Origin: a virus
Direction: 5' to 3' (one strand)
IMG/VR virus record: IMGVR_UViG_3300031669_000143
Coordinates: 1-33,140 of that record
Length of the DNA stretch: 33,140 bases
Position numbers and translations under genes: made by a program. Every line of letters starts with the position of its first letter. The first letter of the stretch is position 1. The notes below the pieces were generated by a model, which was given only the letters and a program-made list of their open reading frames with translations, made no database searches and was not told where the DNA came from. This document shows, piece after piece, positions 3,127 through 29,432 of this stretch.

Positions 3127-3600
3127 TTATTCTCCGTAGCAGCGTGAATGCCATCCATTCTTGTATTTAACATCATTTGGATGAACTGCGATGATTTGTT
3201 CGTAATAATCCCAAAGTTTGTCTTGTATTTGTGTAAGCATCTCTGACTTATAGTTGTTATTGACTGCTTGTATTGTATTTATACCTATTATACCATCTTC
3301 TGTTGTATTCACTGTATTTTGTATGATTTTTGTTATTGGTTTGATTCCAACATTTACTGCGTGGTCGAACCAATAAGTTGCTAAATCATCATCATCTATT
3401 TGGAAGAATTGATACTTTAACCACCAGTTGATTTTGTAGTAGTTGATTGCATCTTGTTTTGTAAGATTCTTTATGTCAAGATTTGGATTATCTCTTTGAC
3501 AAATACCAAAGTTTGTCATTCCGCCTGCGTCAGATAAGTCATCTACGAATCCACCTTCGTGTTGTAGAACCACTGCGATTGCTTGATTAAAGTCTGCCAC
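3127..3600 (-). CDS. Endolysin, GH108 family N-acetylmuramidase
   Basis: A 157-residue lysozyme-type endolysin that cleaves peptidoglycan at the end of infection. The N-terminus carries the GH108 signature HEGGFVDDLSDAGGMTNFGI (about residues 14-33), with E15 the expected catalytic acid. The C-terminal part resembles the small peptidoglycan-binding domain usually paired with GH108 (GIIGINTIQAVN near residue 100). There is no signal peptide, so release should depend on a holin. The start is GTG at 3600, sharing bases with the TAG of the upstream nuclease (TAGTG), with AAAGG ten bases upstream. Holin and spanin genes lie upstream in the same transcript. Confidence 0.9.
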   Translation of the reverse strand: MADFNQAIAVVLQHEGGFVDDLSDAGGMTNFGICQRDNPNLDIKNLTKQDAINYYKINWWLKYQFFQIDDDDLATYWFDHAVNVGIKPITKIIQNTVNTTEDGIIGINTIQAVNNNYKSEMLTQIQDKLWDYYEQIIAVHPNDVKYKNGWHSRCYGE

Positions 3601-3962
3601 TATTGATTATCCTTTATGAACTTATTTATTCCTGCTGTATCTTTCTGATCGAACCAGGTTATTCCCTTTTTATCGCAATAATCAGCATAAGTTGTAGTTG
3701 ATCCTTTGTTGATTGGAGTATCTGCCTTCATAAACACCATAGCGAGTTTTAACCTCGGATTTTGAAGTAATACCTTCACAATTTTTGTTCTGTCTGAACT
3801 TAACCATCTACCTTTTGTCTCTATAAAGCAAGTATCTGACACTTTCCAATCTGGTGTGTATGTATGGGTCAGAACGTATGTAAAGCAAGTAGTTTCGTAT
3901 CCCTTTAAGGATTTACCGTATTGGTCGTTGAATGTCTTTTCGAACTTACTTTTGAATTTCAT
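3600..3962 (-). CDS. T7 endonuclease I-like Holliday-junction resolvase
   Basis: A 120-residue homologue of phage T7 endonuclease I. Candidate active-site residues are E8 in the N-terminal helix, D38 in YTPDWK, and E48 and K50 in FIETKG, followed by WLSSDRTK, the hydrophobic strand LKLAMVF and TYADYCDKKGITWF. The match to T7 gp3 (TPDF, ETKG, Y-x-x-[FY]C-x-K-x-GI-x-[FW]) is close over nearly the whole length. It resolves branched DNA so that the terminase can pass along it, and in some phages degrades host DNA. It directly precedes the endolysin with a one-base-shifted stop/start overlap. A divergent paralogue lies at 2334-2729. Confidence 0.85.
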   Translation of the reverse strand: MKFKSKFEKTFNDQYGKSLKGYETTCFTYVLTHTYTPDWKVSDTCFIETKGRWLSSDRTKIVKVLLQNPRLKLAMVFMKADTPINKGSTTTYADYCDKKGITWFDQKDTAGINKFIKDNQ

Positions 3963-8241: not shown

Positions 8242-9933
8242 TTATCCTTGTTGTGCTTTACTTATGACTGCCGCACCGCCTATAAGTATAAACGGAACCG
8301 GGTCTGTCATTGTAAATTTGAATACAAAATCTCTTGCTGAACCGATTCTTCTCCAACTTACTCTTGCTAAGTAATCACCTACTTTACCGATGTTAGCAGG
8401 CATAGGTGATCCGAAAGTTCTTCCTCCATCCTTACTTACTTGTAACATTATTTGTGGATTCTTACCTTGTCCTATTTGTGTCCCAGAACCAGTTTCCATG
8501 TCAAGCCATAATTCGCCAATAGTGAATACGTCACCATCTGACCAAATGTGACGAGTATCTACTTCTCTAAGTATAGCATCACCTTCTTCGTAGTAATAGT
8601 CTGTTTTCAACTCATAGATTTTGCCCGAAGCAAAGTCAGTAACATAGTTTTTGTTCTTAAACACAATACCGAATTGAGCCTGGTGTCTTCCTGGAGATAA
8701 TCCTGTTTGAACTTGTGACCAAGCCTTTGTCGTTGTATCGTAAAGAAGAGATAGATTTGAGCTTGGGAAAGTAAGTTGATACATAAAGTGACCATCGACG
8801 ATGTAAGATAGTCCAATAGCATCTTCAGCAACGGTAAGACCAGAAATAATGTGTTCTATAGCACGAGTTGATACTTGCTCAATAGAGAAGTCAATCATTG
8901 AATAAACTTGCATTGTTCCTTGTGGTGTTTGACCTAAGAAGTAAATAGAGTCACCTACTCGTGCTCTTGAGTAAATACCTGCCAAACCATACGATAAGGT
9001 TGAACCATTTAATCGTGTCATTGGGAATGGGAATGTTCCAGCATCTTGCCAGAACTCAATAGATTGCTCACCCCATAAAATAATCTGTCCGTCAATAACA
9101 TCACAAGCAACTACGTTGTCTGGTGCTGAATCTTTAAGTGAGAACTGAAGTGCGTTCCATTGCATTCCATCACCGTTGTTTGAAATTGACCATTCTTGTG
9201 AGTTTGGGAAGATTGCAACAAAATAGTTATCAAGGTTGGCAATTGACGTTGTTCCGTTTGGAAAACCATTATTTATTTGTGTCACGTTTGTCACTAAACC
9301 AGAACCAGTTCCACCAAGATTAGTATTTGCGGCAGATAAAGCATCACCCACAACATAGTTTTGACCATAAGTTGTAAGATTGATGTTAGTGACTTTAGTT
9401 CCTGAAACAACAATCGTTGCCTTAGCACCAGTTCCTGTTCCACCTGTAAGAGGAACATTTGTGTATGTGCCATCAACATAGCCAGTTCCTTGAGCATAAG
9501 GAGAACCACCACCATAAGATGAGTTATCTAATACCATAGCCCAACCGATTTGTTTTAGTGTTCCTGCTGCTAAATCATAAACATAACCATTTAGTCCATC
9601 GACCATAATGATTTGCTGTCCATTGTTTGAGAAGATAACATTGCCGTTTGTAGAGTATAAACTTCCTAAAGTAGTAATAGTCTCTGCTTGATTGACGGAA
9701 TACATAATAGAACCAGCAACGAAGTAAAGAATAGAGTTGTAGGTATAGATTCCTCTGATAGGCAAGTTATTGGGTGCCGAAATCCATTTAAGAAGACCGG
9801 GTGTTCCTCTGATGTAAATCTTTTCTTTGTCTCCATCAGGAATAAGTTCATAGAAACAGTTGATTCTGACTTGAGCAGATACCTGAGATGCTATTCCTTT
9901 TGTTCCTGATCCAAAGAGTGCTATTTTTTTCAT
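8242..9933 (-). CDS. P22 gp10-like packaged-DNA stabilisation protein (tail plug)
   Basis: A 563-residue beta-propeller-type virion protein. P22 gp10 extends the portal vertex and keeps packaged DNA from leaking. Family-like features are the N-terminal NCFYELIPDGDKEKIYIRGTPGLLKW (about residues 25-50), the central WGEQSIEFWQDAGTFPFPMTRL and SYGLAGIYSRARVGDSIYFL, and the C-terminal VSWRRIGSARDFVFKFTM. Inserted at about residues 137-222 is a glycine/threonine-rich module (GTGYVDGTYTNVPLTGGTGT, then YGQNYVVGDALS) that resembles domains found in other phage tail proteins. It lies downstream of the tail fibre gene. The start has a weak ribosome-binding site and begins two bases after the upstream stop, so coupling is likely. 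Confidence 0.8.
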   Translation of the reverse strand: MKKIALFGSGTKGIASQVSAQVRINCFYELIPDGDKEKIYIRGTPGLLKWISAPNNLPIRGIYTYNSILYFVAGSIMYSVNQAETITTLGSLYSTNGNVIFSNNGQQIIMVDGLNGYVYDLAAGTLKQIGWAMVLDNSSYGGGSPYAQGTGYVDGTYTNVPLTGGTGTGAKATIVVSGTKVTNINLTTYGQNYVVGDALSAANTNLGGTGSGLVTNVTQINNGFPNGTTSIANLDNYFVAIFPNSQEWSISNNGDGMQWNALQFSLKDSAPDNVVACDVIDGQIILWGEQSIEFWQDAGTFPFPMTRLNGSTLSYGLAGIYSRARVGDSIYFLGQTPQGTMQVYSMIDFSIEQVSTRAIEHIISGLTVAEDAIGLSYIVDGHFMYQLTFPSSNLSLLYDTTTKAWSQVQTGLSPGRHQAQFGIVFKNKNYVTDFASGKIYELKTDYYYEEGDAILREVDTRHIWSDGDVFTIGELWLDMETGSGTQIGQGKNPQIMLQVSKDGGRTFGSPMPANIGKVGDYLARVSWRRIGSARDFVFKFTMTDPVPFILIGGAAVISKAQQG

Positions 9934-11592: not shown

Positions 11593-11916
11593 TTATTCCT
11601 CTTCTTTTTTGACTATTGTTTCTTCTATTGCTTCTGCCATTTCTTCTAATAATACGGGAAGTGGCGGATGTTCTCTGTGATCATCTCTTTTTAGTGTTGT
11701 AAGATTCTTCCTATCTACTCTGTTCCAAATCTTATCTCTAACTAAGATAAAAAGCATTATACAAGTATAAATAAAAGTCAGTAGAATCAACCATTGACTT
11801 AATGGGTATCCAAAGAACACCAACACCGATGTTGTTGCTGACGGCGCCAAAGGGATCATCGAATGTAATACTGATGTTTCATTCATTTTAGGTTCCTGAT
11901 TTAAAAAGTCGGTCAC
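11593..11916 (-). CDS. Small membrane protein (107 aa)
   Basis: There is one clear membrane span at about residues 38-60 (QWLILLTFIYTCIMLFILVR) with a weaker hydrophobic stretch before it (LAPSATTSVLVFFGYPL). The cytoplasmic tail is charged, ending EEMAEAIEETIVKKEEE. The reading from GTG at 11916 overlaps the upstream TGA (GTGA) with GGAG ten bases ahead; an in-frame ATG at 11886 with AGGA at ideal spacing is equally plausible and would give 97 residues. Family not recognised; it resembles small membrane proteins of unknown role seen between podophage tail genes. Confidence 0.6.
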   Translation of the reverse strand: MTDFLNQEPKMNETSVLHSMIPLAPSATTSVLVFFGYPLSQWLILLTFIYTCIMLFILVRDKIWNRVDRKNLTTLKRDDHREHPPLPVLLEEMAEAIEETIVKKEEE

Positions 11917-13265
11917 TTGAATTCTTCTCCAAGTCCGTGTTTATGAAGATCAGGTAACCACTTTAGCACCTTTACTCCAATGTCATTCCTGTAAAACTCA
12001 CCAGGAGTATGAAGATCATCTATAGTATTATAGACTCTCTTTCGGCACTGTTCAATAGAGTCGCCTAATGCTGTAACAACCATGTAGTATGTTCCAGCCG
12101 TAACCCAATCCTTAACCTTCTTAAAATTCCCCTTATCGTCCAATACTGTGTATTCACCCATCTTAACAAACTGTGGTGATAAGTATCTGCGATTTCCTGT
12201 TTTGACACCATCTCCTGTAATACCATAAATTGGTAAATCTTGTGATTTTTTGTATGCTTTTGCATCATCCTCGAATGGGAACGGAGGAACAACTAACACA
12301 ACACACAAGGCTATGTCCATCTTTACTTGTAGAGTATCTTTACCATTTATGGCATCAATCATCCACTGTATTGGATCACCTAAATGTTGTTTCTGATTCA
12401 TTTGCCAAGCTGGATAACCAAATCGACTTGTAAATTCAAGTGGCCAAGCCTTACCATCTTCATCTATAATACAATTAACATCTATGTTACCCAAATGACC
12501 CATCTTTACTAAATCTTCTTCAAGTGGGCGAAGTATTTCTTCTCCATAGTTAGAAGACGATACATACTTACATACAGTTCCCATTTCGCCTGTTGCTGGT
12601 CCAACTTCTCCTGCTGCTAATCCTTTGTGTTCGAATCCCTCACAGAACTTGCCAAGAAATCCCTTTGACCCAACCCAAGTATTTACAGCAAACTCAATTC
12701 CTTTGATGAACTTTTGTAAAATAAACGGATCTTTTGGAGCAAGTTTGTTCTTCTTGAGCCAATTGATGTGTTCTATCATGTCACCGGCATCCTTTGAACA
12801 GTATGACATTGATTTATCTTCTTCATCACCAAGTGTCTTAAACACATAGCGACCCTTATCTGTTTTTAAGAAAGCAACTGCTTCATCAAGAGTATTGAAC
12901 TTATGATAAGGAGGAACATCTATGCCGTGATCTTGTAAGAACTTGAGTCCTACTTCTCTTTTTACTTCTAACTCGGTTGATTTAACTGATGGTGAGAAAA
13001 TAGGAAGACCCATTCTTTTGAATGCGTCAAGTCTCTCAACAAATTGACCATTATCCATCAATACAGTTAGATCCATCTTTTTGATAACAGAAACCCAGTT
13101 TTTAACGATTGTTATACCAGGAATACCTTTACCTACATCTTTTGGCCCGGTTGGATTAGTTGTGTCTTCATTTGAAAACCAATAAACATCATACCCTGCC
13201 TCAGCGCAAGAAATACAAAACGGCAAGTTAAGAGGCTCTACATCCACTATTAGTATCTTCTTCAT
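11913..13265 (-). CDS. ATP-grasp ligase, related to phosphoribosylamine-glycine ligase (PurD-like)
   Basis: A 450-residue ATP-grasp enzyme. The N-terminal Rossmann-like part starts MKKILIVDVEPLNLPFCISC and lacks the usual PurD GGGGREHA motif. The ATP-grasp core includes RYVFKTLGDEEDKSMSY (about residues 139-155) and ILQKFIKGIEFAVNTWV, and the metal-binding end is IDVNCIIDEDGKAWPLEFTSRFG with D262, N264, E277 and R281. This C-terminal pattern matches PurD. The enzyme would join a carboxylate to an amine with ATP, but the substrate is not predictable. The gene lies in the structural operon between the ejection proteins and the tail fibre, suggesting a virion or host-surface role or a purine-supply function. 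AGGAAAAC precedes the ATG. Confidence 0.72.
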   Translation of the reverse strand: MKKILIVDVEPLNLPFCISCAEAGYDVYWFSNEDTTNPTGPKDVGKGIPGITIVKNWVSVIKKMDLTVLMDNGQFVERLDAFKRMGLPIFSPSVKSTELEVKREVGLKFLQDHGIDVPPYHKFNTLDEAVAFLKTDKGRYVFKTLGDEEDKSMSYCSKDAGDMIEHINWLKKNKLAPKDPFILQKFIKGIEFAVNTWVGSKGFLGKFCEGFEHKGLAAGEVGPATGEMGTVCKYVSSSNYGEEILRPLEEDLVKMGHLGNIDVNCIIDEDGKAWPLEFTSRFGYPAWQMNQKQHLGDPIQWMIDAINGKDTLQVKMDIALCVVLVVPPFPFEDDAKAYKKSQDLPIYGITGDGVKTGNRRYLSPQFVKMGEYTVLDDKGNFKKVKDWVTAGTYYMVVTALGDSIEQCRKRVYNTIDDLHTPGEFYRNDIGVKVLKWLPDLHKHGLGEEFK

Positions 13266-17114: not shown

Positions 17115-17894
17115 TTATAATCCAGAATTTACGCCCGGAACATTTAAGTTAGATACATCAACACCAGCACCACCATTAGGATTAAATGCACTTTGTAGTG
17201 TAGATAATTGTTGTTGTGCCTGTTGATTCTGAAGTTGTTGAGCATACTGATTCTGAGTATAAGAATTTAATCCTTGACCAAATGCTTGTGCTATACCCAA
17301 TTGTCCAGATGCTTGTATCTGACCCTGAGCAACAGTAAGATTTGATACATTATTTGCTGTATTCCCAATTTGTGCTGCTTGTCCAGATGCAGCAGCCTGT
17401 CCTTGACTCTCAATACCAGCCATGTTATTGAATTGCTGTTGTTGATTATTCATGTAGTTATTGTATTGTTGCTGATAAGTAGTTGACGCAAGACCTTGAT
17501 TGAAAGTGGCCAATGCTTGTTCTTGAGCACCGCTTCCTGTTCGTCCTGTCGCAGCACCAGCATTTTTAATACCTTGCTGTCCTTGTTGCATTTGGAATTG
17601 ATAAGCAGGAGTATTCTGAAAGTTAGCGGCAGTGAATGGTGTATTGTATTGACCACCTGGTTTTAGTCCAGCCTGCATTGTAGATAATGCTTGTGTTCCA
17701 GCATTTACGAATGGTTGTTCGAGTGCTTTTTGTGAGGCAAGTGCTTGATTTTGCTGATTTATGGCATTTTGTTGAGCATCTGCGGCCGTATTAGCAGCAT
17801 TATTTGCGGCATACGCACCAATAACCGCACTGGCGACCACGGCAGCCCCAACTTGTTTAATTCTTTTTTCACGATCTGGATTATAACCAAACAT
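17115..17894 (-). CDS. Small DNA-ejection protein (P22 gp7 / DNA transfer protein type)
   Basis: A 259-residue Ala/Gln/Asn-rich protein. It starts MFGYNPDREKRIKQVGAAVV with a hydrophobic alanine-rich segment at about residues 14-40, then has KALEQPFVNAGTQALSTMQA, NFQNTPAYQFQMQQGQQGIK and NAGAATGRTGSGAQEQALA. These match the podophage 'DNA transfer protein' family, whose hallmarks are 'F.nt.gYqf.l.qG..ai...aaa.G...SGa..kal'. These proteins are stored in the capsid and injected first to help DNA cross the envelope. AAGGAAACAAATT precedes the ATG. Confidence 0.75.
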   Translation of the reverse strand: MFGYNPDREKRIKQVGAAVVASAVIGAYAANNAANTAADAQQNAINQQNQALASQKALEQPFVNAGTQALSTMQAGLKPGGQYNTPFTAANFQNTPAYQFQMQQGQQGIKNAGAATGRTGSGAQEQALATFNQGLASTTYQQQYNNYMNNQQQQFNNMAGIESQGQAAASGQAAQIGNTANNVSNLTVAQGQIQASGQLGIAQAFGQGLNSYTQNQYAQQLQNQQAQQQLSTLQSAFNPNGGAGVDVSNLNVPGVNSGL

Positions 17895-17909: not shown

Positions 17910-18359
17910 TTATAATAGTTTTGTAAATACTATTTCTGTGTTACTGTATTCTAAATACTCAAATAGTCGAGTATGATTAAAGTGAATCTTTGTTCCTGTA
18001 ATAATCTTTTTAACACCTAACTCTTTTAGTTTCTTTTCGGTAAATTGAAACATTTTAAGTCCAACTCTTCCGTTGCGATGTTCTTTTGCTACAAAGTATA
18101 AATCAACAAATGCATGTAAAGTAGATTTATAGTGAAGATGACCATTTATTATACTTATGTGATAACCAATTATTTCTTCTTCACTTCTTACTGTTACAAG
18201 ATGTAATACACCACTATTGTCTAACTCTTTGTATCTGTCCCAATCCATGTCAAGAGGAACTTCATTATGATTTAGTGCTATCTCTTGCCAATGTATTTCT
18301 GCGAATGGTTCTAATTCTGGTTGAACATCATTCCATCTTTCCACTTGATAAGTAATCAT
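17910..18359 (-). CDS. GNAT-family N-acetyltransferase
   Basis: A 149-residue protein with the GNAT fold order. Strand IIGYHISIINGHLHYKSTLH leads to motif A, VDLYFVAKEHRNGRVGLKMF (about residues 86-105), then the helix TEKKLKELGVKKIITGTK. The acetyl-CoA pyrophosphate loop reads RNGRVG, a variation of the usual RxxGxG seen in several phage members. It would move an acetyl group from acetyl-CoA to an amine on an unknown substrate. It is coupled to the upstream dioxygenase by an ATGA overlap, so the two may act together, for example on virion proteins or host components. Confidence 0.75.
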   Translation of the reverse strand: MITYQVERWNDVQPELEPFAEIHWQEIALNHNEVPLDMDWDRYKELDNSGVLHLVTVRSEEEIIGYHISIINGHLHYKSTLHAFVDLYFVAKEHRNGRVGLKMFQFTEKKLKELGVKKIITGTKIHFNHTRLFEYLEYSNTEIVFTKLL

Positions 18360-18919
18360 TTTGTCACCTTCAAGTTTTCAAACATCTTTGTTCTAATGTC
18401 TATTATCATTGTTAAACGGTCTATTGATGAATTATTGACAACTGAGTGTTCTTTATGATTTGCCACCACAAACACATCACCTGTTTTTGGTGTAAAATTC
18501 TCACCATCAACTGTAAATACAGCACCTTCTTCATTCAGCAAACTTATGTGAAACCTCTGATAATGACTTACTGGAGAACCATAATCTATGTGTGAATCTA
18601 TTTTTGATCCTGGTTTCAATCTTGTTATAACTGCTCGACCAATCCTATCTCCATACACATCGCTCATTAAAGCATACATCAACGGTTTTATTGGTAAGAT
18701 GAATGCTGAATTATACCAGTGACATTCCGCATCATCTATTGCTGCCGAAATACCATTAGATAAATCATTGAATCGCAACACAATGTCATCTACTTCTTTA
18801 TGAGGAGTCATTGGATGAGTTGTTCTTAAATCCATCTGATTCCATAATTCTGGATGTTCATCAAGTTCTTCTAAAATTGGACCAACATTTACATTTGTTG
18901 CTATGGTAATAAAGTTCAT
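18356..18919 (-). CDS. Fe(II)/2-oxoglutarate dioxygenase, aspartyl/asparaginyl hydroxylase type
   Basis: A 187-residue cupin-fold oxygenase. The HxD iron ligands are H110 and D112 in KIDSHIDYGSPVSHYQRFHI, the distal histidine is H158 in NHKEHSVVN, and R168 in SSIDRLTMIIDI is placed to bind 2-oxoglutarate. GDVFVVANHKEHSVVNNS and the strand order match the aspartyl/asparaginyl beta-hydroxylase family. It would hydroxylate a protein side chain or small molecule. AAAGGAAATAG precedes the ATG, and it is translationally coupled to the GNAT gene. It lies just upstream of the ejection genes within the late operon. Confidence 0.8.
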   Translation of the reverse strand: MNFITIATNVNVGPILEELDEHPELWNQMDLRTTHPMTPHKEVDDIVLRFNDLSNGISAAIDDAECHWYNSAFILPIKPLMYALMSDVYGDRIGRAVITRLKPGSKIDSHIDYGSPVSHYQRFHISLLNEEGAVFTVDGENFTPKTGDVFVVANHKEHSVVNNSSIDRLTMIIDIRTKMFENLKVTK

Positions 18920-18937
18920 TATCTATTTCCTTTAAAA

Positions 18938-19081
18938 TTATTGTTTCTTAATCATTGTTTGATAAAAGTGACCATCACTTACTATCATTCCTCCTAAACA
19001 TTCCCAACCGTCTTCTATAAACTTATTTACTAAAAGACAAAGTGTCGGAATTGATCTTTGATTTAGTATGTGGTATTCCAT
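18938..19081 (-). CDS. DUF1737-like small protein (47 aa)
   Basis: A 47-residue product with FIEDGWECLGGMIVSDGHFY, then QTMIKKQ. The 'vn..i.eGW...GGm.vsdg..yQ.Mik' pattern fits the DUF1737 family, small proteins common in phages and some bacteria with no defined role. Its ATG shares a base with the TAA of the preceding gene (TAATG). Confidence rests on that characteristic pattern over most of the length. Confidence 0.65.
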   Translation of the reverse strand: MEYHILNQRSIPTLCLLVNKFIEDGWECLGGMIVSDGHFYQTMIKKQ

Positions 19082-19314
19082 TACTTAATCATCCTATCTA
19101 TTTCAATCGGAAAAGCCAGTTCCCATAGCCAAACACCTTCTCGATAAGTGCATCTTACTGAATAGTATTTACCTTCTTCAATAAGATTATAAGGAAAGTC
19201 ACTATCTCTGCTGATGATGTGATTCTTTACTCCTGGAACATCGAGTATAATGTATTTTAGTGTATGATCTTTCTTCTCTTGAAGATAGATCATTAGTGTT
19301 GATTTTTTTTCCAT
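19081..19314 (-). CDS. Hypothetical protein (77 aa)
   Basis: A 77-residue soluble protein with alternating hydrophobic residues (KYIILDVPGVKNHIISRDSD, YYSVRCTYREGVWLWELAFP) suggesting a small beta-barrel or sandwich. AGGATTAAATTTT precedes the ATG, and its stop overlaps the DUF1737-like gene. No family recognised. It sits between the gp4-like connector gene and the modification genes. Confidence 0.6.
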   Translation of the reverse strand: MEKKSTLMIYLQEKKDHTLKYIILDVPGVKNHIISRDSDFPYNLIEEGKYYSVRCTYREGVWLWELAFPIEIDRMIK

Positions 19315-19319
19315 AAAAT

Positions 19320-19469
19320 TTAATCCTGATAAGTGGTATGTGCTTCTACCGATTCTTTAATGTATCTTAGTGCTATCTTGTGTAATTCTTCGTCCGACTT
19401 TGGCTTACCTACTGCCTTTAATAGTTCATAATACAGAGCAACTATTTCTTTGTCGGTTTTACTATTCAT
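19320..19469 (-). CDS. Small helical hypothetical protein (49 aa)
   Basis: A 49-residue product MNSKTDKEIVALYYELLKAV to EAHTTYQD, predicted as two helices separated by GKPKSDEE. Its start lies inside the last codons of the gp4-like gene (8-bp overlap), and its stop is five bases before the next ATG. No family recognised. Confidence 0.55.
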   Translation of the reverse strand: MNSKTDKEIVALYYELLKAVGKPKSDEELHKIALRYIKESVEAHTTYQD

Positions 19470-20421
19470 CTTCTTCGCATCTAAAGTAAAGAGTTGATGT
19501 TTTTGTGTTTTTGTTTGTTGCTATTGCTACTGATTCTTTTGATAATTCCTCCATCAATGGAGTCCATACACCCAAGAACATAGGGCAAATTTCTCTACTC
19601 AATAACCAAGAAAGTGCTCTGAAATACTCTTGAGGATACTCTAAATTTTCTGATGGAACACCACTTATGTCTTGAATTGGTTCTAAATAACCGAGAACAA
19701 TGTATTTTGTTGTATCTGCTGCTGAACCACAATCTGTTCGCAAAATAGAGTTTGTTAGTTGATTCTCGACATACACTGCTGTAGGATCACTTTGATTGTT
19801 TGGATCAACCTTTGATGGCAATAGAGCCCATTCTTCTAAATTTAGTATTCTTAGTGGAATGTCTTGATTTGCTGTATCTCTCAATAATACAAACTCAACA
19901 TTGAGTGGTTGTTGTGCTTTTTTAGTATAAACAAATACTTGGCTTCCTGTTCCTGAGGAATCAGGTAATGCCGTTGATAAGGTAATCGAATTGCCAATAA
20001 TGCTTGATACTGTTGTCCAGAACATTGATCCGTCTGACTGCTCAATACCGATGCTGTCATTTATTGAAATGCCTGTCGAACTATTCACTGTGATTGCTGT
20101 TGCCAACTTTAGGGCATTATACATCAATGTGGTAGATACAAAAGAGTTTGTCCAGTTGTCACCGGATGGTCCAATGCTGTATTGTCCGGTTTTATTTGAC
20201 AAGAATAAGAAACCTTGGCGTCTTGTCCAAGTCTTTATTCCCTTCGAGAAATCTGTATTTCCTTGAAGTTGCTTGACAATCATGTTCAGTTTTCTGAGTA
20301 TGTCTGCGTATTCTGTAGCTGTAATTGTGTCAGATGAACCCAACTTACCTATGTTTAACATAGATTCTCTTATTATGTCATTTGCTGATACTGTGAAACT
20401 AAATGTTCCTGATGTGCTCAT
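19462..20421 (-). CDS. P22 gp4-like tail accessory factor (head-tail adaptor)
   Basis: A 319-residue neck protein. The first 70 residues (SANDIIRESMLNIGKLGSSD, YADILRKLNMIVKQLQGNTD) match the P22 gp4 family, which binds the portal ring and carries the tail hub. The middle (NDSIGIEQSDGSMFWTTVSS, plus DSSGTGSQVFVYTK) is the beta-rich insert common in longer members, and the C-terminal half (PLRILNLEEWALLPSK, GYLEPIQDISGVPSENLEYP, YFRALSWLLSREICPMF) fits the family. It is about twice the length of P22 gp4 but typical of the broader podophage family. GGAG precedes the ATG at 20421. Confidence 0.8.
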   Translation of the reverse strand: MSTSGTFSFTVSANDIIRESMLNIGKLGSSDTITATEYADILRKLNMIVKQLQGNTDFSKGIKTWTRRQGFLFLSNKTGQYSIGPSGDNWTNSFVSTTLMYNALKLATAITVNSSTGISINDSIGIEQSDGSMFWTTVSSIIGNSITLSTALPDSSGTGSQVFVYTKKAQQPLNVEFVLLRDTANQDIPLRILNLEEWALLPSKVDPNNQSDPTAVYVENQLTNSILRTDCGSAADTTKYIVLGYLEPIQDISGVPSENLEYPQEYFRALSWLLSREICPMFLGVWTPLMEELSKESVAIATNKNTKTSTLYFRCEEDE

Positions 20422-20441
20422 CTATTATTCTCCATCTACTT

Positions 20442-21917
20442 TTATTTATCGTTTTGTTGATTTTTGCGCATTGAAATAGGATCAAGGATGTTGGTTAGTA
20501 TCTTCCAGGTGTCTTCTACATTCATCATTGATTGACATTTTGCCACACCCTTTGTTTTATCGAGGTTACAAGTGCTATAATTCATGTCTGGGTGAAGTTT
20601 ATGACAAGGATAGCAGGATAACTTTTCGGTTGGAGTGAATAATGAATAAGTATTGACCCAATCTCTGGTTAGATTCTTTACCGAACTATGTGACAGAAAT
20701 ACTATCTTTGGGATAGGTAAGTATGCTGCCCAGTTTGCCACACCTGTTTCTGGTGCGAATAATACATCAATGTAATTAAGCATCGTCAATGTTTGTCTGA
20801 TTGACCACTGTCCTGCTGTGAAATGAACTTTCGGAAAGCGAGAGAACATCTCAACCGTTTCTTGTGTCACTACTTCTGGACCACCTACAAACAAAAAATC
20901 TACATCTTCGTAATAGTTGATTACTCTTGGCATTATTTCTGCGAATTGGGTGTTGATTTTGTGACAAGATGAGCCGGTTAAGGACCACATAATCACTCGT
21001 TTGCCCATCTTTTTGCGTTCTTTGATTGCCCAAGCATCTTCTTCTGGTGTAGATACGAACTTGATCTGTGGGTCGTGAGGAACATCTGCCAACTTATGCT
21101 GAAACTCGACATAGTTGTGATCCATTATTGCGTGTCTTGCTTCTTGTGTCCAGTCGTATGCTGGTCTTCCTGTCATTGCCAATAATGTTCCTTCTACTGA
21201 TTCGCATAGATTGACAAAATTATCGCACTTTGACTTTAGGTATTCGAAGTATTCACCGAGCGCTTGATTTGGAACTTGTCCTCTGTCACAAATAACCAAC
21301 TTATCTATGTTCTTATCGTGAAGAATAACATCGCAACCTGGTCGTTGGGTAATCAATGTAAGATGATACCCTTGTTTCTTTAACCCAGCATAAACAGATG
21401 ATGCCTGTGCCTGGTCACCGAAAGCACCGTATCGAACAACGATTGCTTTCTTCTGTAGATTTAATACTTTAAACGATTCAATCTTATCTTTGTTGTGTAG
21501 TTTCTTGAGAACAATAAAGGATACTTCTTCTGATGTTCCATCTGGGTAAGGTTGAGTAATAATAGTTGATTCTACTATGTCTCTGCCTTTTAGGTTTGTG
21601 ATTGCGTATTCTATTGTCTTATTTGGTTCAGACATAATGGTAAGATAACCACCTGGTTTCAATACACGGAAGTATTCTGCTATTGTTGAGGACATGTCAT
21701 TTATGTAGCATAATACACTCTCTGGCGCAGTAAATACTACAAAATCAAGGCTATTTCCTGCTATTAAATCAAGTTTTTCGTATGATTTTAGTCTGATAGT
21801 TGAATCTTCTGTCATACCTGTTTTTATGAAGTGAGGAAAGGCGGTATTTGTTCCGTTTGTAATCTCTAATCCCCTACCTGCTGTGTATTCTACCAGTTTC
21901 CATTGTAAATCACTCAT
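20442..21917 (-). CDS. Methyltransferase-like / GT9-type glycosyltransferase fusion
   Basis: A 491-residue two-domain enzyme. Residues 1-138 look like a class I methyltransferase: GRGLEITNGTNTAFPHFIK, then FRVLKPGGYLTIMSEPNK. The SAM loop lacks the usual GCG (it reads EITNGTN), so methyl transfer may be lost. Residues 155-480 resemble heptosyltransferase-type (GT9) enzymes: AIVVRYGAFGDQAQASSVYA, ITQRPGCDVILHDKNIDKLV, FLFVGGPE, FAPETGVANWAAYLPIPKIV, and a cysteine-rich end (CYPCHKLHPDMNYSTC). The start at 21917 is chosen over the ATG at 21929 because AAGGA sits ten bases before it but abuts the earlier one. It overlaps the upstream gene by 8 bp. It likely adds a sugar to a virion protein or host polysaccharide. 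Confidence 0.75.
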   Translation of the reverse strand: MSDLQWKLVEYTAGRGLEITNGTNTAFPHFIKTGMTEDSTIRLKSYEKLDLIAGNSLDFVVFTAPESVLCYINDMSSTIAEYFRVLKPGGYLTIMSEPNKTIEYAITNLKGRDIVESTIITQPYPDGTSEEVSFIVLKKLHNKDKIESFKVLNLQKKAIVVRYGAFGDQAQASSVYAGLKKQGYHLTLITQRPGCDVILHDKNIDKLVICDRGQVPNQALGEYFEYLKSKCDNFVNLCESVEGTLLAMTGRPAYDWTQEARHAIMDHNYVEFQHKLADVPHDPQIKFVSTPEEDAWAIKERKKMGKRVIMWSLTGSSCHKINTQFAEIMPRVINYYEDVDFLFVGGPEVVTQETVEMFSRFPKVHFTAGQWSIRQTLTMLNYIDVLFAPETGVANWAAYLPIPKIVFLSHSSVKNLTRDWVNTYSLFTPTEKLSCYPCHKLHPDMNYSTCNLDKTKGVAKCQSMMNVEDTWKILTNILDPISMRKNQQNDK

Positions 21918-22557
21918 CGTTATTTTCATCCTTGTAATTATACTTCTTTAGTGCTTGCTTTATCTTCATTGAGAACTTTATTCCTTTGTTTCCGAACAAA
22001 GTTAGTATCTCAACTACATTTGATGTTAGTAAATAAGCATGAATCTCATCAATAAGAACTTCTTCTGTGTATCCTTCGTTTGTAAGAACACGCTTAAATG
22101 TATTTAGTATTCCTGGTGGTATCTGATTGATGAAGTTGATTACTTCTTCTTTGTATTCTTTATTTAATTTGAACTGAGCGTGTGCTATCTCGTGATCTAC
22201 TACACCAGAATCTGCTCCAACAAATGATGCGATTAGGTATTTTGTGTCGGGGAAGAACTTTAATAGTTCCTTTATCTCAATCTCACCTGGAGATAAGTCG
22301 TGAAAGTGATTAAAGAAAGAGTGTGCTGTCTCGATAGGAACATTAAATCCTTCCCAGTAGTTGAAGTAACTCTCTCTTTGTATTCTATCTTCTCCGAAGT
22401 GAGTGAGTAAGAATGTTTCCCAGTTAAATACTTTACCTCTTATACTATCGTAAGGACTTTCATAAAACTCTTGTAATCGTCCGAATCTTATAGATACTTC
22501 TGGTTTAGTATTATACTGGAGAAGCAATACACCATCAATCGGATGACTTATCAGCAT
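21910..22557 (-). CDS. Protein with HExxH motif, possible zinc metallopeptidase
   Basis: A 215-residue protein of unrecognised family. Residues 122-126 read HEIAH inside VVDHEIAHAQFKLN, the classic zinc-binding helix of metallopeptidases. E171 or H173 in VLIDEIHAYLLTSN, 45-50 residues later, could be the third ligand. The N-terminal half (RFGRLQEFYESPYDSIRGKV, SYFNYWEGFNVPIE) has no recognised features. The motif can occur by chance, but the surrounding aliphatic helix pattern and a downstream glutamate helix make a gluzincin-type fold plausible. It overlaps both neighbours and sits between two enzymes that modify glycans or small molecules. Confidence 0.55.
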   Translation of the reverse strand: MLISHPIDGVLLLQYNTKPEVSIRFGRLQEFYESPYDSIRGKVFNWETFLLTHFGEDRIQRESYFNYWEGFNVPIETAHSFFNHFHDLSPGEIEIKELLKFFPDTKYLIASFVGADSGVVDHEIAHAQFKLNKEYKEEVINFINQIPPGILNTFKRVLTNEGYTEEVLIDEIHAYLLTSNVVEILTLFGNKGIKFSMKIKQALKKYNYKDENNDE

Positions 22558-22705
22558 CTTGTTCTTCTGATTGAGTTAAATCAACATAGTGACCAGCAGC
22601 ATCAAAATAATGTCCGTTTTGTTCGTATCTTGCTTGATTGTGTCCTTCGATAACACCGTGTGGTTTCTTTTTGTCGAATACTGGTGTCGTTTTTGTTTTT
22701 GCCAT
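22535..22705 (-). CDS. Small hypothetical protein (56 aa)
   Basis: A 56-residue hydrophilic product with HGVIEGHNQARYEQNGHYFD and AAGHYVDLTQ, followed by an acidic tail (SEEQDADKSSD). The GH-rich centre might bind metal. GGAG lies ten bases before the ATG, and the end overlaps the HExxH protein gene by 23 bp. It follows the FkbM gene by two bases. No family recognised. Confidence 0.55.
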   Translation of the reverse strand: MAKTKTTPVFDKKKPHGVIEGHNQARYEQNGHYFDAAGHYVDLTQSEEQDADKSSD

Positions 22706-22707
22706 AA

Positions 22708-23496
22708 TTATGCGTCTCCGTTAGATGATTTGAAGTGTTCGTGCCAATCTGATGCGTGTGCTACTGTCAATCCGTGAATAGTAATGTCTTTTGGAACACA
22801 CAATACATTGATTGATGCTATTCCTTCGAATAAGTTTTCTTTGTCTTGATTGATGTTGTTAGTATTAAAGAATGGTGCTGAATGCCAGTAGATTTCATAA
22901 CCAAGTGATCTGATGAACTTAAATAGTTCTTCATTCTTCTTCGGACGATCTGCCTCAACATACATTACTGGTTGGTATTCGCGAATCATTTCTGCGGCAC
23001 CTTTTACTACAGCGAGTTCCATACCTTCTACATCAATCTTAATAAAGTGACAAGGAACATTTAGTGGAACAACGTCCATCTCTTGTCCATCTTCTATTTG
23101 TTCGAAAGAATAGCCGCCGAAGTTGTTTTCCTGATTGTAATCCAACTCAACATACTTTACTTTCTCACCTGATACACCTACTGCCGCACACACTGCTGTC
23201 ACATTTGTAAGATTATTTAACGCAAGTGATCCGCAAAGACAATTATACACCTGAACTTGTGGTTCGAAAGCATAAACGTGTCCTGTGTTTCCTACTAAGC
23301 GAGAGAATAACAGAGTGTGAGCACCATAGTTGGCACCGACATCAATAACTGTCATTCCTGGTTTGATTAGTGATCTGAATAAATCACCTTCTGATTCTGA
23401 GAATTCACCATACTTGATAAGTGATGCCCCAACATACTTGTCTTTGTCATTGACAATCATCTTACCGTTTTTAGTTTCTGCTAATACATTACTCAT
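22708..23496 (-). CDS. FkbM-family SAM-dependent methyltransferase
   Basis: A 262-residue methyltransferase. Motif I is VIDVGANYGAHTLLFSRLVG (about residues 50-69), the ribose-binding acidic residue is E78 in VYAFEPQ, and the family-defining IKIDVEGMELAVVKGA lies at residues 152-167. FkbM enzymes methylate hydroxyls of sugars or polyketides and are common in polysaccharide and glycan clusters. Here it probably acts with the glycosyltransferase fusion two genes downstream. GGAG precedes the ATG at ideal spacing, and a TATAAATA motif lies 37 bases upstream, so it may head its own transcript. Confidence 0.88.
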   Translation of the reverse strand: MSNVLAETKNGKMIVNDKDKYVGASLIKYGEFSESEGDLFRSLIKPGMTVIDVGANYGAHTLLFSRLVGNTGHVYAFEPQVQVYNCLCGSLALNNLTNVTAVCAAVGVSGEKVKYVELDYNQENNFGGYSFEQIEDGQEMDVVPLNVPCHFIKIDVEGMELAVVKGAAEMIREYQPVMYVEADRPKKNEELFKFIRSLGYEIYWHSAPFFNTNNINQDKENLFEGIASINVLCVPKDITIHGLTVAHASDWHEHFKSSNGDA

Positions 23497-24814: not shown

Positions 24815-24838
24815 ACCCGCCGATTAAGTTCGGCGGGT
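24815..24838 (-). terminator. Hairpin terminator after the major capsid gene
   Basis: A perfect nine-base stem, ACCCGCCGA (24815-24823) with TCGGCGGGT (24830-24838), around a six-base loop. It begins 11 bases beyond the coat-protein stop. On the minus strand it is followed by ATTTATAC, a weak U-tract. The position after the most highly expressed gene and the strong GC stem suggest partial termination or an RNA-stabilising 3' end. Its outer edge also forms TATAAATA on the plus strand (24808-24815). Confidence 0.65.
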
Positions 24839-24849
24839 TATCTATTTGA

Positions 24850-25821
24850 TTAAGCAGCACTGTCCCATGCAACTACACGAGCGTTCAATGCGTCTGTATG
24901 AACAAGACCAAATCCGCCGATGTAATACCATGCCACACCTTTTGAACGACCGAAGTCTGAAGGGATAGCACCACGCATTTCTTCTGGAAGTGTAACACCT
25001 TCAGCAACTGTGTCGTTACCGAAGAAGAAGATCCAGTCTGATTTGCCTGTTGTCCATGGTGTTCCGCTAACGCCGTCTGTTGACTTACCAGCAACGATGT
25101 TTGTTTGCTCAACATAACGAGTATTTTCGTAACGACCAATTTCACCAGCCATGATCAACTTAAAGCCAGTATCGGTGTATTGATGAATGGTTTCAAGGTT
25201 GTTCTTGAATGTGCGAAGTGTTGATGGACGAGCAATAGCGTAGTAATCATCACCAACATACGCTGGAATGTTACGTTCTTTCATTGCGTCTACGATTGAC
25301 TTAGCGTGGTTGTTGTTGAATGCAACACCGTTTGTTCCAGTTACAGTTCCGTTTGTGTAGATTGTTACTGCGGCTGTATCTGTCCCACCAGTAGGAATTG
25401 CACGAAGTGGAGTAGCGTTGAACTGTGCCCATGCTGTGCGATCGAATGCCTTAGCAGCATCGTTCTTTAATACTTTCTGGATCAATTCTTGCACTGGGAA
25501 CTTGGATAAGTTGTCCAATTTTTCGCTGTAAGGAATCGAGTTACCAAGTTCAGTAACTGTCAAAGTTCCCTGAGTGATGGTATAGTTAGATTGTGGCATT
25601 GTTGATGTTTCTGCTAACACACCGCCTGCTGTAACTACGTCACTGAATACGTCCCAAGTGAAGATGTCACCTTTCTTTTTGCCTTGTTGCGAACTATCAC
25701 GAACGTCCGCGAATTGACGAAATTTCGTAAGAGGTTGAACTGTCATACGGAAAATGTCTGATAATTGACGTGAATACATGTATCCACCAAGGGTGTTTAC
25801 GCCCCATACTTGTCCTGCCAT
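24850..25821 (-). CDS. Major capsid protein (HK97 fold, N4gp56/P22-coat-like)
   Basis: A 323-residue coat protein. The N-terminus MAGQVWGVNTLGGYMYSRQL is followed by QPLTKFRQFADVRDSSQQGK, KKGDIFTWDVFSDV (about residues 50-63) and GGVLAETSTMPQSNYTITQG, then TVTELGNSIPYSEKLDNLSK. This matches the coat family of N4gp56-type proteins, an HK97-fold group common in podophages. The end of the protein (GRSKGVAWYYIGGFGLVHTD) is also typical. It follows the scaffold gene by 27 bp, has AAAGGAG before its ATG and is followed by a GC-rich hairpin. Confidence 0.88.
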   Translation of the reverse strand: MAGQVWGVNTLGGYMYSRQLSDIFRMTVQPLTKFRQFADVRDSSQQGKKKGDIFTWDVFSDVVTAGGVLAETSTMPQSNYTITQGTLTVTELGNSIPYSEKLDNLSKFPVQELIQKVLKNDAAKAFDRTAWAQFNATPLRAIPTGGTDTAAVTIYTNGTVTGTNGVAFNNNHAKSIVDAMKERNIPAYVGDDYYAIARPSTLRTFKNNLETIHQYTDTGFKLIMAGEIGRYENTRYVEQTNIVAGKSTDGVSGTPWTTGKSDWIFFFGNDTVAEGVTLPEEMRGAIPSDFGRSKGVAWYYIGGFGLVHTDALNARVVAWDSAA

Positions 25822-27077: not shown

Positions 27078-29432
27078 TTATCCTTGTTGCGGTTGCTGTG
27101 GTGGTTGAGGAACCGGGGCTCCATTAGCATTTGTCTTCACAGCGGCTGATTCTGCTACTGCTCCAACTCCTCCTTTTACTAAAGCGTGATAATGATCTAC
27201 CAACTTACGGTTATTGGCATTGCCTTCTTTCATCTGTGCTATTGCCAACTTAGTCTGATTATTCTGATGAGCAATCTGAACTTTAGCATTCTGTGGTGCT
27301 TGTTTGTCCATAAGCATCTTCTTCAACTGCATAATCTGCATGTTAAGTTGTTGAACTTCTGAATTATCACCAAGAGTAACGAATCTCGAACCATCTGCGT
27401 AACCTAATGCGCCGAAGATTTCTTTGCCAACTTCAGTAAGATTCAAGTTTGGAACACCTGATTTAGCGATGTTTGTATAAGCCATCATACCAGTAATAAG
27501 TTTATTTATCTTTTGTTCTGGTGAGGTTGCTCCCATACCGACATTTACTCTTGCGGATAGTTCTTTTTGTAAAAGTTCTTCTGGAGTAATAACCGGTTGC
27601 TGAAGTGCTTGTCCTGGCATACCTTGATTCATACCTTGTGGTTGACCTGGTTGTGGTTGAGGCATACCTGGTTGTGCAGGCGGCATTCCTCCTGCTACTT
27701 TCTGTTGCATCTGCATCTCCTGAACAAGACGCTTGTATTCTTTAGAACGATCACCAAGATTCTTTAACAGTGATTCATTTGTTTCATAGTGTTTCTCAAG
27801 CAATACCAACTGATTAAGAATAGGCTCAAGGAATGTTTCGGTAAATGTTCGTAATGTGTATTCTACCAAGACATTTGCTGATTGATTAAGCATAGCCATA
27901 CCTGATGCGGTCTGAGCAAGTTGTTTGTTGTTCTGCACTGTTCCAGCACCAAAGTTACCAGCAAGTTCATCGAAATCTACATTGATACGATCTTGTTCTA
28001 CATAAGATGATTGCGTAACATCTGGTGTGTTTTCACGACGAACATCTTCAAGACTATCTGCTTGTGTAATACCGCCAGGAACGTTTCGAATAAGTGACTG
28101 TAAATCAACATTCTTGTTGCGAACAACTGTCCAACGACCATTCATTGCGAACTTCACGTTGTCTAATCTCTGATTTGCTATTTCGTTTGCTTCGTCTTGT
28201 AATCCTCTTGTAATTTCAGGAAGAGAAGAAGCAAATACCTTGTGTGTTTCGATGATTGCTGATCCTATAACATAAGGACGCTTTCCGTGGAATACATTCT
28301 GATCAAGAGGAACTGGTTCTGTAAGTAATGCGATGTCTTCTAAAGTATAAAAGTCATAATCTACATCATCTTCTCTGTGAATGTGTCTCTGAACCCACAC
28401 TATTTCATAGTCACTGATTGCTTTACCGTTTGTTTCATACGGATTACCGTGACGACGGTTACGAGTATCGTAAGTTGTATCTACTTTTGATTGTATTGCT
28501 GAACGGATTGTTGCTTCAGATAGTTTTAACCATTCACCAGATGCCATCATTGATTTAACATCACCTACATACATAGGAATACGGTGAATAAGATAAGGAG
28601 AACTATTTACTGGGTCTGTCCAACTTGCTGCTGGATCAATACGAATGTTCTCAATAGGAATAAGATCTACCATTGGTTCATCTTTAATCAGAACCTTTTC
28701 GGTTGTTTTAACTGTCTTCTTACCGACGAAAGTAGGACGATCTGAGATGCTTGGCGCTTGTAGTGGTTCGACGCCGTTGTGTAATACTGGGTTTGACACT
28801 GGTTCGAAATCATCTACTTCTGCTGTGTGAGTAACATTCTTTGTTTTTGTATTCCAATAGATGTGAGCGCAGGCAGCACCAGTAGTAACCGCGTCTTGTA
28901 ATCCACCAGTAACTGTCTGATACCAAGGAATTGATTTGTTTAAGTGATACTGAATAGCCGTCTTCATAAGATCTGCTGCGGCATTCTCAACTATACTTGA
29001 TGGATTTTCTGATTGTATTGAGATAACATCTGAGTTTGAGAAATAAGCAACTGCGGCCGCCGCTTCTAACTTACGGATGATTGATCTTGTCTTAGGACGA
29101 AATAGTTTTGATCTTTTCTCGAACGATGCTGAGTTGTATTTCGAATCAGAAGGATGTTCGTTGTTAAAAGCATTTAACGAATCTTCCCAGCGTTTGCGAT
29201 AGTAAGCATCAACATAGTCGGTTGAGTTTGAATAAGCATCTCTGGCTTTGTTTAACCAATAGTTATTCTGCTCTTGTGACTCTTGTTCATCTATAGACAT
29301 TCCGCTGTATTCAAGATCGTCGATTGTTTCCATGTCAGTTGTATGATTCTCTCTTGCGGAACCAAGTGCTGTATTATCTGCTGCTGGTGGCTTTACATAA
29401 GAAAGCGAATTGTGTGGGATGCGTTGTGCCAT
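27078..29432 (-). CDS. Portal protein (P22-like)
   Basis: A 784-residue portal, the dodecameric ring through which DNA enters and leaves the capsid. Typical segments include YYRKRWEDSLNAFNNEHPSD, RSKLFRPKTRSIIRKLEAAA (about residues 107-126), DAVTTGAACAHIYWNTKTK, VDLIPIENIRIDPAASWTDP, SYVEQDRINVDFDELAGNFG and SGMAMLNQSANVLVEYTLRT. These follow the P22-type portal order. The C-terminal quarter has a Pro/Gln/Gly-rich linker (MPPAQPGMPQPQPGQPQGMN) and ends in a helical and then proline-rich barrel-like tail. AAAGGACTATAA precedes the ATG. Unusually, terL is not next to it but at the other end of the window. Confidence 0.88.
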   Translation of the reverse strand: MAQRIPHNSLSYVKPPAADNTALGSARENHTTDMETIDDLEYSGMSIDEQESQEQNNYWLNKARDAYSNSTDYVDAYYRKRWEDSLNAFNNEHPSDSKYNSASFEKRSKLFRPKTRSIIRKLEAAAAVAYFSNSDVISIQSENPSSIVENAAADLMKTAIQYHLNKSIPWYQTVTGGLQDAVTTGAACAHIYWNTKTKNVTHTAEVDDFEPVSNPVLHNGVEPLQAPSISDRPTFVGKKTVKTTEKVLIKDEPMVDLIPIENIRIDPAASWTDPVNSSPYLIHRIPMYVGDVKSMMASGEWLKLSEATIRSAIQSKVDTTYDTRNRRHGNPYETNGKAISDYEIVWVQRHIHREDDVDYDFYTLEDIALLTEPVPLDQNVFHGKRPYVIGSAIIETHKVFASSLPEITRGLQDEANEIANQRLDNVKFAMNGRWTVVRNKNVDLQSLIRNVPGGITQADSLEDVRRENTPDVTQSSYVEQDRINVDFDELAGNFGAGTVQNNKQLAQTASGMAMLNQSANVLVEYTLRTFTETFLEPILNQLVLLEKHYETNESLLKNLGDRSKEYKRLVQEMQMQQKVAGGMPPAQPGMPQPQPGQPQGMNQGMPGQALQQPVITPEELLQKELSARVNVGMGATSPEQKINKLITGMMAYTNIAKSGVPNLNLTEVGKEIFGALGYADGSRFVTLGDNSEVQQLNMQIMQLKKMLMDKQAPQNAKVQIAHQNNQTKLAIAQMKEGNANNRKLVDHYHALVKGGVGAVAESAAVKTNANGAPVPQPPQQPQQG

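Follow-up and report, generated by a model that had tools for sequence, protein, structure and literature searches.

A GT9-like glycosyltransferase fusion linked to the capsid gene of a podovirus-like phage clade, among enzyme genes that do not co-occur as a set

The IMG/VR virus record IMGVR_UViG_3300031669_000143, a linear stretch of 33,140 bases that was analysed whole and is called the window here, carries six enzyme genes: an FkbM-type methyltransferase, a protein with an HExxH motif, a fusion of a methyltransferase with a glycosyltransferase resembling family GT9 (GT9 for short), a 2-oxoglutarate dioxygenase, a GNAT-family protein and an ATP-grasp ligase. Profile searches of the window place all of them in a structural operon on the minus strand that is podovirus-like in its SU10-type portal, HK97-type capsid protein, tail adaptor, P22 gp26-type stabilisation protein (Hc3) and DNA-ejection protein. 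A search at the DNA level found no close deposited phage for the window. The locus raises the question of whether these enzymes act in one pathway that decorates the virion or the host surface, as an initial annotation had proposed. We find that they do not co-occur as a set in relatives and that one of them, the GT9 fusion, tracks the head module.

GT9 was found in 61 loci with a constant gene order of portal, major capsid protein (MCP), small open reading frames (ORFs), a variable interval, GT9, tail adaptor, stabilisation protein, ejection proteins, ATP-grasp ligase and fibre. A single-protein scan of viral contigs with the window GT9 gave no match, and these relatives came up with alignments. 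To avoid GT9 itself as the anchor, a scan was anchored on the capsid protein; GT9 lies between MCP and tail adaptor in 32/32 of the resulting contigs that reach the adaptor, a count that includes near-duplicates, all within about 73% capsid identity. Among non-redundant loci, MCP is upstream of GT9 on the same strand in every case (65/65), and the gap from GT9 to the adaptor has a median of 1 bp and is at most 60 bp in 45/50. Relatives have GT8, GT2 and TylF-type methyltransferase genes in the variable interval that separates GT9 from the capsid block (L109:7643-8287, L113:2333-3433, L167:2965-3531; L numbers denote loci).

Of 398 Pseudomonadota genomes, eight have strong GT9 matches (E of 1e-104 or lower), at nine loci, and a separate search of those genomes with a capsid alignment returned exactly the same eight, with nine full copies plus fragments. 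In these loci, which could be integrated prophages or else phage contigs that were binned with the genomes, MCP and GT9 are accompanied by portal and a scaffold-like gene. The stretches of these loci that were read lack the families to which the tail adaptor, stabilisation protein and ejection proteins of the window belong, and other connector and structural families replace them. Since MCP and GT9 share the same eight genomes although the window's tail families are missing there, GT9 follows the head module, one to one with the capsid gene, and not the tail. Three tblastn queries of the GT9 family against 50,697 deposited phage records gave no match at 1e-5.

The assignment to GT9 comes from predicted structure. 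An AlphaFold2 model of the fusion, made from an alignment with 43 members of the family, reaches a mean pLDDT of 86.8, and its best solved fold matches are GT9 enzymes, namely Veillonella GT9 3tov (1e-13), WaaF (7e-12), WaaC (8e-8) and TibC (3e-7). Among the viral structures that it matches are phage proteins annotated as heptosyltransferases and one whose name derives from Aah/TibC. By sequence, the Pfam search yields only a partial methyltransferase match (Methyltransf_11, 5.8e-6), one relative reaches the RfaQ model in the NCBIfam search, only at 0.007, and the match to 3tov is weak (E 0.1). The GD and D/E-S/T-G motifs are family-invariant and align to the GT9 structure, and the putative catalytic residues D172, K324 and E394 are found in 52/52 family members, also where the methyltransferase half has decayed. 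The fusion described in the initial annotation is therefore GT9-like by its predicted structure, and the other parts of that description held less well, there being no match to the Pfam GT9 model and a degenerate methyltransferase half.

We further note that cysteines 439, 442, 454 and 465, near the C-terminus of the fusion, are invariant in the 52 relatives. TibC, which heptosylates proteins, binds iron through C339, C342, C358 and C370, all four of which are required for activity (PMC4358343). The spacing is C-x2-C-x11-C-x10-C in the fusion against C-x2-C-x15-C-x11-C in TibC, and none of the lipopolysaccharide (LPS) GT9 enzymes WaaF, WaaC, WaaQ and WaaU of E. coli K-12 has such a cluster. 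The cluster hints at a protein acceptor. We rejected filing the fusion as a TibC-type (BAHT) enzyme, as its N-terminal domain is of the alpha/beta methyltransferase type, with no beta-barrel.

In the methyltransferase half, DxGxG, a later Asp and SSHxLEH are each kept at about 92-96% in 52 diverse family members; the S-adenosylmethionine (SAM) motif and the acidic residue that follows are kept in 47/52, and one further member differs by D44 to E alone. The window departs from all three, with EITNG for DxGxG (residues 22-26), T for D44 and PESVLCY for SSHxLEH. Among sequences complete at that end, outright motif loss is seen only in the window, L109 and L142. Identity between the window and its relatives is 27% in the methyltransferase half and 45% in the glycosyltransferase half, against 51% and 57% among the relatives themselves. 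Another branch (L179 and others) encodes the methyltransferase as its own ORF upstream of a stand-alone GT9 of 355 residues, and this arrangement supports a joint role of both. Because the glycosyltransferase residues are present in 52/52 while the methyltransferase half is decayed or split off elsewhere, the glycosyltransferase is the constant part of the family; in the window, the methyltransferase half has decayed and the glycosyltransferase core is intact.

No such constancy unites the six enzymes. In a non-redundant set of 47 loci that have both GT9 and the first ejection protein, the window being one of them, the ATP-grasp ligase is present in 19, GNAT in 18, the dioxygenase in nine, FkbM in two and HExxH in one, which is the window itself; many of the contigs end too early for the ligase, and the PF05118 co-occurrence search had no positive control, the dioxygenase negative resting on an in-house profile. 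Because the genes fail to co-occur as a set, the single pathway of six decorating enzymes is unsupported. All six do lie within the structural operon of this phage, but HExxH is present in no relative (0/38), FkbM in three others, and GT9 is absent from 23/25 phage records with the ligase, fetched through the ligase or its neighbours. As a conserved system, one decoration pathway of all six is refuted; the idea could apply only if the genes were brought together recently in this phage, and we regard it as very improbable. Enzyme genes that stand together in a structural operon need not form one pathway.

Several details of the initial annotation fared better. Profile searches confirmed the identities of GNAT (PF00583), the dioxygenase (PF05118), FkbM (PF05050) and the ATP-grasp ligase (GARS_A/GARS_C). 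The genes had been called scattered, which is wrong for GT9, the ligase, GNAT and the dioxygenase, whose positions are conserved in relatives; in the interval from 17910 to 23496, only the tail adaptor and a small ORF separate enzyme genes. Virion decoration is strengthened as a role for GT9, locked as it is to the capsid gene, with FkbM as an optional neighbour, and the remaining enzymes fall outside it.

The reading we favour, with about even confidence, makes GT9 a glycosyltransferase tied to the capsid, with a head protein as its late target and methylation as a trait gained and lost. From the gene order and the conserved residues we infer an active enzyme that, encoded with the head genes, would transfer sugar to a head protein during late assembly. 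The donor would be a host nucleotide-sugar, ADP-heptose-like, and the acceptor either MCP or a small protein from a neighbouring gene. In most relatives a methyl group would be added, to sugar or acceptor, by a class I methyltransferase domain, fused or separately encoded. This phage has a decayed version of the domain, and FkbM, a separate methyltransferase from the same block of genes, may have taken its place. The ATP-grasp ligase, GNAT, dioxygenase and HExxH protein would not be steps of the GT9 pathway. The locking of GT9 to the capsid gene fits decoration of the virion head, and further GT2, GT8, TylF or FkbM genes in the capsid-GT9 interval of relatives count towards glycosylation. Several points weigh against this reading. 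The fusion has no match to the Pfam GT9 model at E<=1, and it is because this model is unmatched while the fold is that of GT9 that we use the label GT9-like. TibC, the protein heptosyltransferase, is not the closest fold match; other GT9 families may carry such cysteine clusters too; no gene for making a sugar-nucleotide was noticed in the window; and the linkage to the capsid gene could also reflect an assembly role without catalysis.

That last point leads to the proposal that the protein, though of GT9 fold, serves head assembly or structure and can now do without catalysis. The absolute linkage to the capsid gene speaks for it, and the methyltransferase domain is retained despite motif loss in the window, L109 and L142. 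We nevertheless regard this as improbable, given that the putative catalytic residues and the four cysteines are invariant in 52 sequences and that the glycosyltransferase half is better conserved than the decayed half. GT9 might instead alter a host surface glycan such as the LPS core late in infection, which would keep progeny from re-adsorbing or prevent superinfection. LPS is the target of the best-known GT9 enzymes, the top fold matches include WaaF and WaaC, and the best NCBIfam match of the dioxygenase, far under its cut-off, is the lipid A hydroxylase LpxO. A receptor-modifying gene, however, would be expected to vary with the host and the receptor-binding genes, and GT9 stays with the capsid while tail genes change, which makes this alternative unlikely.

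Extending the favoured reading of a capsid-linked glycosyltransferase to the whole group, a large uncultured phage clade might possess, as an obligate component, a protein glycosyltransferase that is specific for the capsid, has the GT9 fold and a metal finger, and is inherited one to one with the capsid protein across tail modules, so that head glycosylation would be built into head maturation and not be an optional evasion trait. We consider this extension doubtful. The favoured reading, if right, would describe a glycosyltransferase as conserved as its capsid gene, in a clade with no representative found among the deposited phage records searched, and it predicts that phages with this capsid family have glycosylated heads, whatever their tail. 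Few phages are known with protein glycosylation of their heads.

FkbM, the possible replacement for the methyltransferase half, scores well above curated cut-offs (PF05050, 68.1 against 22.7 bits; TIGR01444, 94 against 37.7). It occurs in three further phages at 45-62% identity: L159 and L161 have it between the capsid block (o121) and GT9, and in L202 it comes straight after that block (o121). The HExxH gene is an isolated acquisition. The motif named in the initial annotation is present and, with a later Asp-Glu pair, invariant in seven homologues, and this part of the description stands; profile searches found no Pfam or NCBIfam family for the protein, and a zincin fold check of its model (five sequences, pLDDT 84.2) gave a best solved match of E 0.24, which is not significant. 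A single-protein scan of viral contigs with the window protein found no match; all relatives that came up are from Xanthomonas phage XacN1, an uncultured phage of 642 kb and four contigs of archaeal and bacterial metagenome-assembled genomes (MAGs). XacN1 ORF432 (L003:11971-12615), a member of this family, is annotated as an 'ABC transporter ATP-binding protein', a label that its sequence does not support.

GNAT and the dioxygenase lie in a slot of exchangeable content, directly ahead of the first ejection protein. Among the 72 loci whose contig covers this slot, GNAT is found in 29, a cupin in 21 and the dioxygenase in nine (overlapping counts), and 22/72 have other content. The three replace one another at a single position beside the ejection genes (window 17910-18919). 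The dioxygenase exceeds the PF05118 cut-off (47.3 against 22.6 bits) and keeps its HxD...H triad (H110, D112, H158) in 7/7; a GNAT-anchored scan gave one locus only. A long cupin-containing ORF fills the slot at L235:14715-15578, with similar ORFs in L244, L139 and L066, and the L235 ORF ends in a C-terminal SET domain (PF00856, 3.4e-9) of the protein-lysine methyltransferase type, unusual for a phage. We tentatively consider that GNAT, like the dioxygenase or cupin found at that position, may help the internal ejection proteins to assemble, a role that has been proposed for T7 gp13. The recurrence of these families in the slot is consistent with this, as is the position of T7 gene 13 directly before gene 14, which encodes the first internal virion protein; in work on cobaviruses, a GNAT of this kind was proposed to be the gp13 counterpart (PMC6775973). 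On the other side stand the slots with other content and the absence of profile similarity between the GNATs and gp13 homologues (hhalign probability 0.2%). This profile comparison led us to reject GNAT as a gp13 homologue, position alone being in common.

The ATP-grasp ligase belongs to the ejection/tail module, a module of its own. Relatives have it after the tail adaptor, stabilisation protein and ejection proteins; it is encoded in 303 IMG/VR stretches (search with a two-sequence alignment), and K143, E277 and R281 are invariant in 48 sequences. A PurD-like ATP-grasp ligase is conserved after ejection genes across a wide range of phages. It shares the ATP-grasp core and C domain with PurD (GAR synthetase), but the window ligase scores 96.6 bits with TIGR00877 against an equivalog cut-off of 288, and the phage proteins have a conserved EFTxR near the metal site where PurD has EFNxR.

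Elsewhere in the window, the Hc3 stabilisation protein (P22 gp26-like; 8242-9933) comes after a fibre-like gene. Its place in nearly all relatives is directly behind the tail adaptor, so that its position in the window is a rearrangement in this phage. A strong GC-rich hairpin (24815-24838; seven G-C of nine pairs) lies just past the capsid gene stop and is a possible attenuator between capsid and downstream genes; promoter and terminator scans gave chance level only. Two copies of a phrog_945 endonuclease (2334-2729 and 3600-3962) lie on either side of the endolysin gene (3127-3600), and PADLOC found no meaningful defence match. Coordinates of the main features are given in Table 1.

Table 1. 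Positions of structural and enzyme features in the window, with the basis of each assignment.
Feature	Coordinates	Strand	Basis
SU10-type portal; start of head module	27078..29432	-	profile search
Major capsid protein, HK97-type	24850..25821	-	profile search; family one to one with GT9
FkbM-type methyltransferase, optional	22708..23496	-	PF05050, 1.3e-18
HExxH protein	21910..22557	-	motif only
Methyltransferase-GT9 fusion, 495 aa; core gene between capsid block and tail adaptor	20442..21929	-	predicted structure and synteny
N-terminal class I methyltransferase domain, degenerate	21480..21929	-	motif alignment
GT9-like (GT-B) glycosyltransferase domain, invariant D172, K324, E394	20442..21467	-	alignment and fold
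C439-x2-C442-x11-C454-x10-C465 cluster, possible metal finger	20535..20615	-	invariant in 52 relatives
Tail adaptor (phrog_12985); directly after GT9 in relatives	19462..20421	-	profile search and synteny
Small ORF among enzyme genes	19081-19314
Fe(II)/2-oxoglutarate dioxygenase, Asp_Arg_Hydrox type	18356..18919	-	PF05118, 2.6e-12
GNAT-family protein, directly upstream of first ejection protein	17910..18359	-	PF00583, 5.5e-8
First DNA-ejection protein (phrog_598)	17115..17894	-	profile search
PurD-like ATP-grasp ligase, after ejection proteins	11913..13265	-	GARS_A 1.1e-9, GARS_C 2e-8

Among known systems, the window's FkbM protein matches its family (PF05050, TIGR01444) over the full domain, and its gene is optional in this clade. 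The fusion shares the GT9 fold and GT9 motifs with the LPS heptosyltransferases WaaF and WaaC, but these, like WaaQ and WaaU, have neither a C-terminal cysteine cluster nor a fused methyltransferase, and the window gene stands in a phage head operon. With TibC (BAHT) it shares the GT9/GT-B fold and four conserved cysteines of similar spacing near the C-terminus; it differs in having a methyltransferase-like N-terminal domain instead of the beta-barrel, and no autotransporter neighbour. Virion glycosylation as such is already known: capsid glycans are reported for mycobacteriophages Che8 and Rita, which resemble the present case in their phage-encoded glycosyltransferases (PMC11256854). The glycosyltransferases of Maravista, from the same cluster as Che8, lie near the 3' end of the genome, whereas in the unrelated podovirus-like clade described here one GT9-methyltransferase fusion is encoded between capsid and adaptor.

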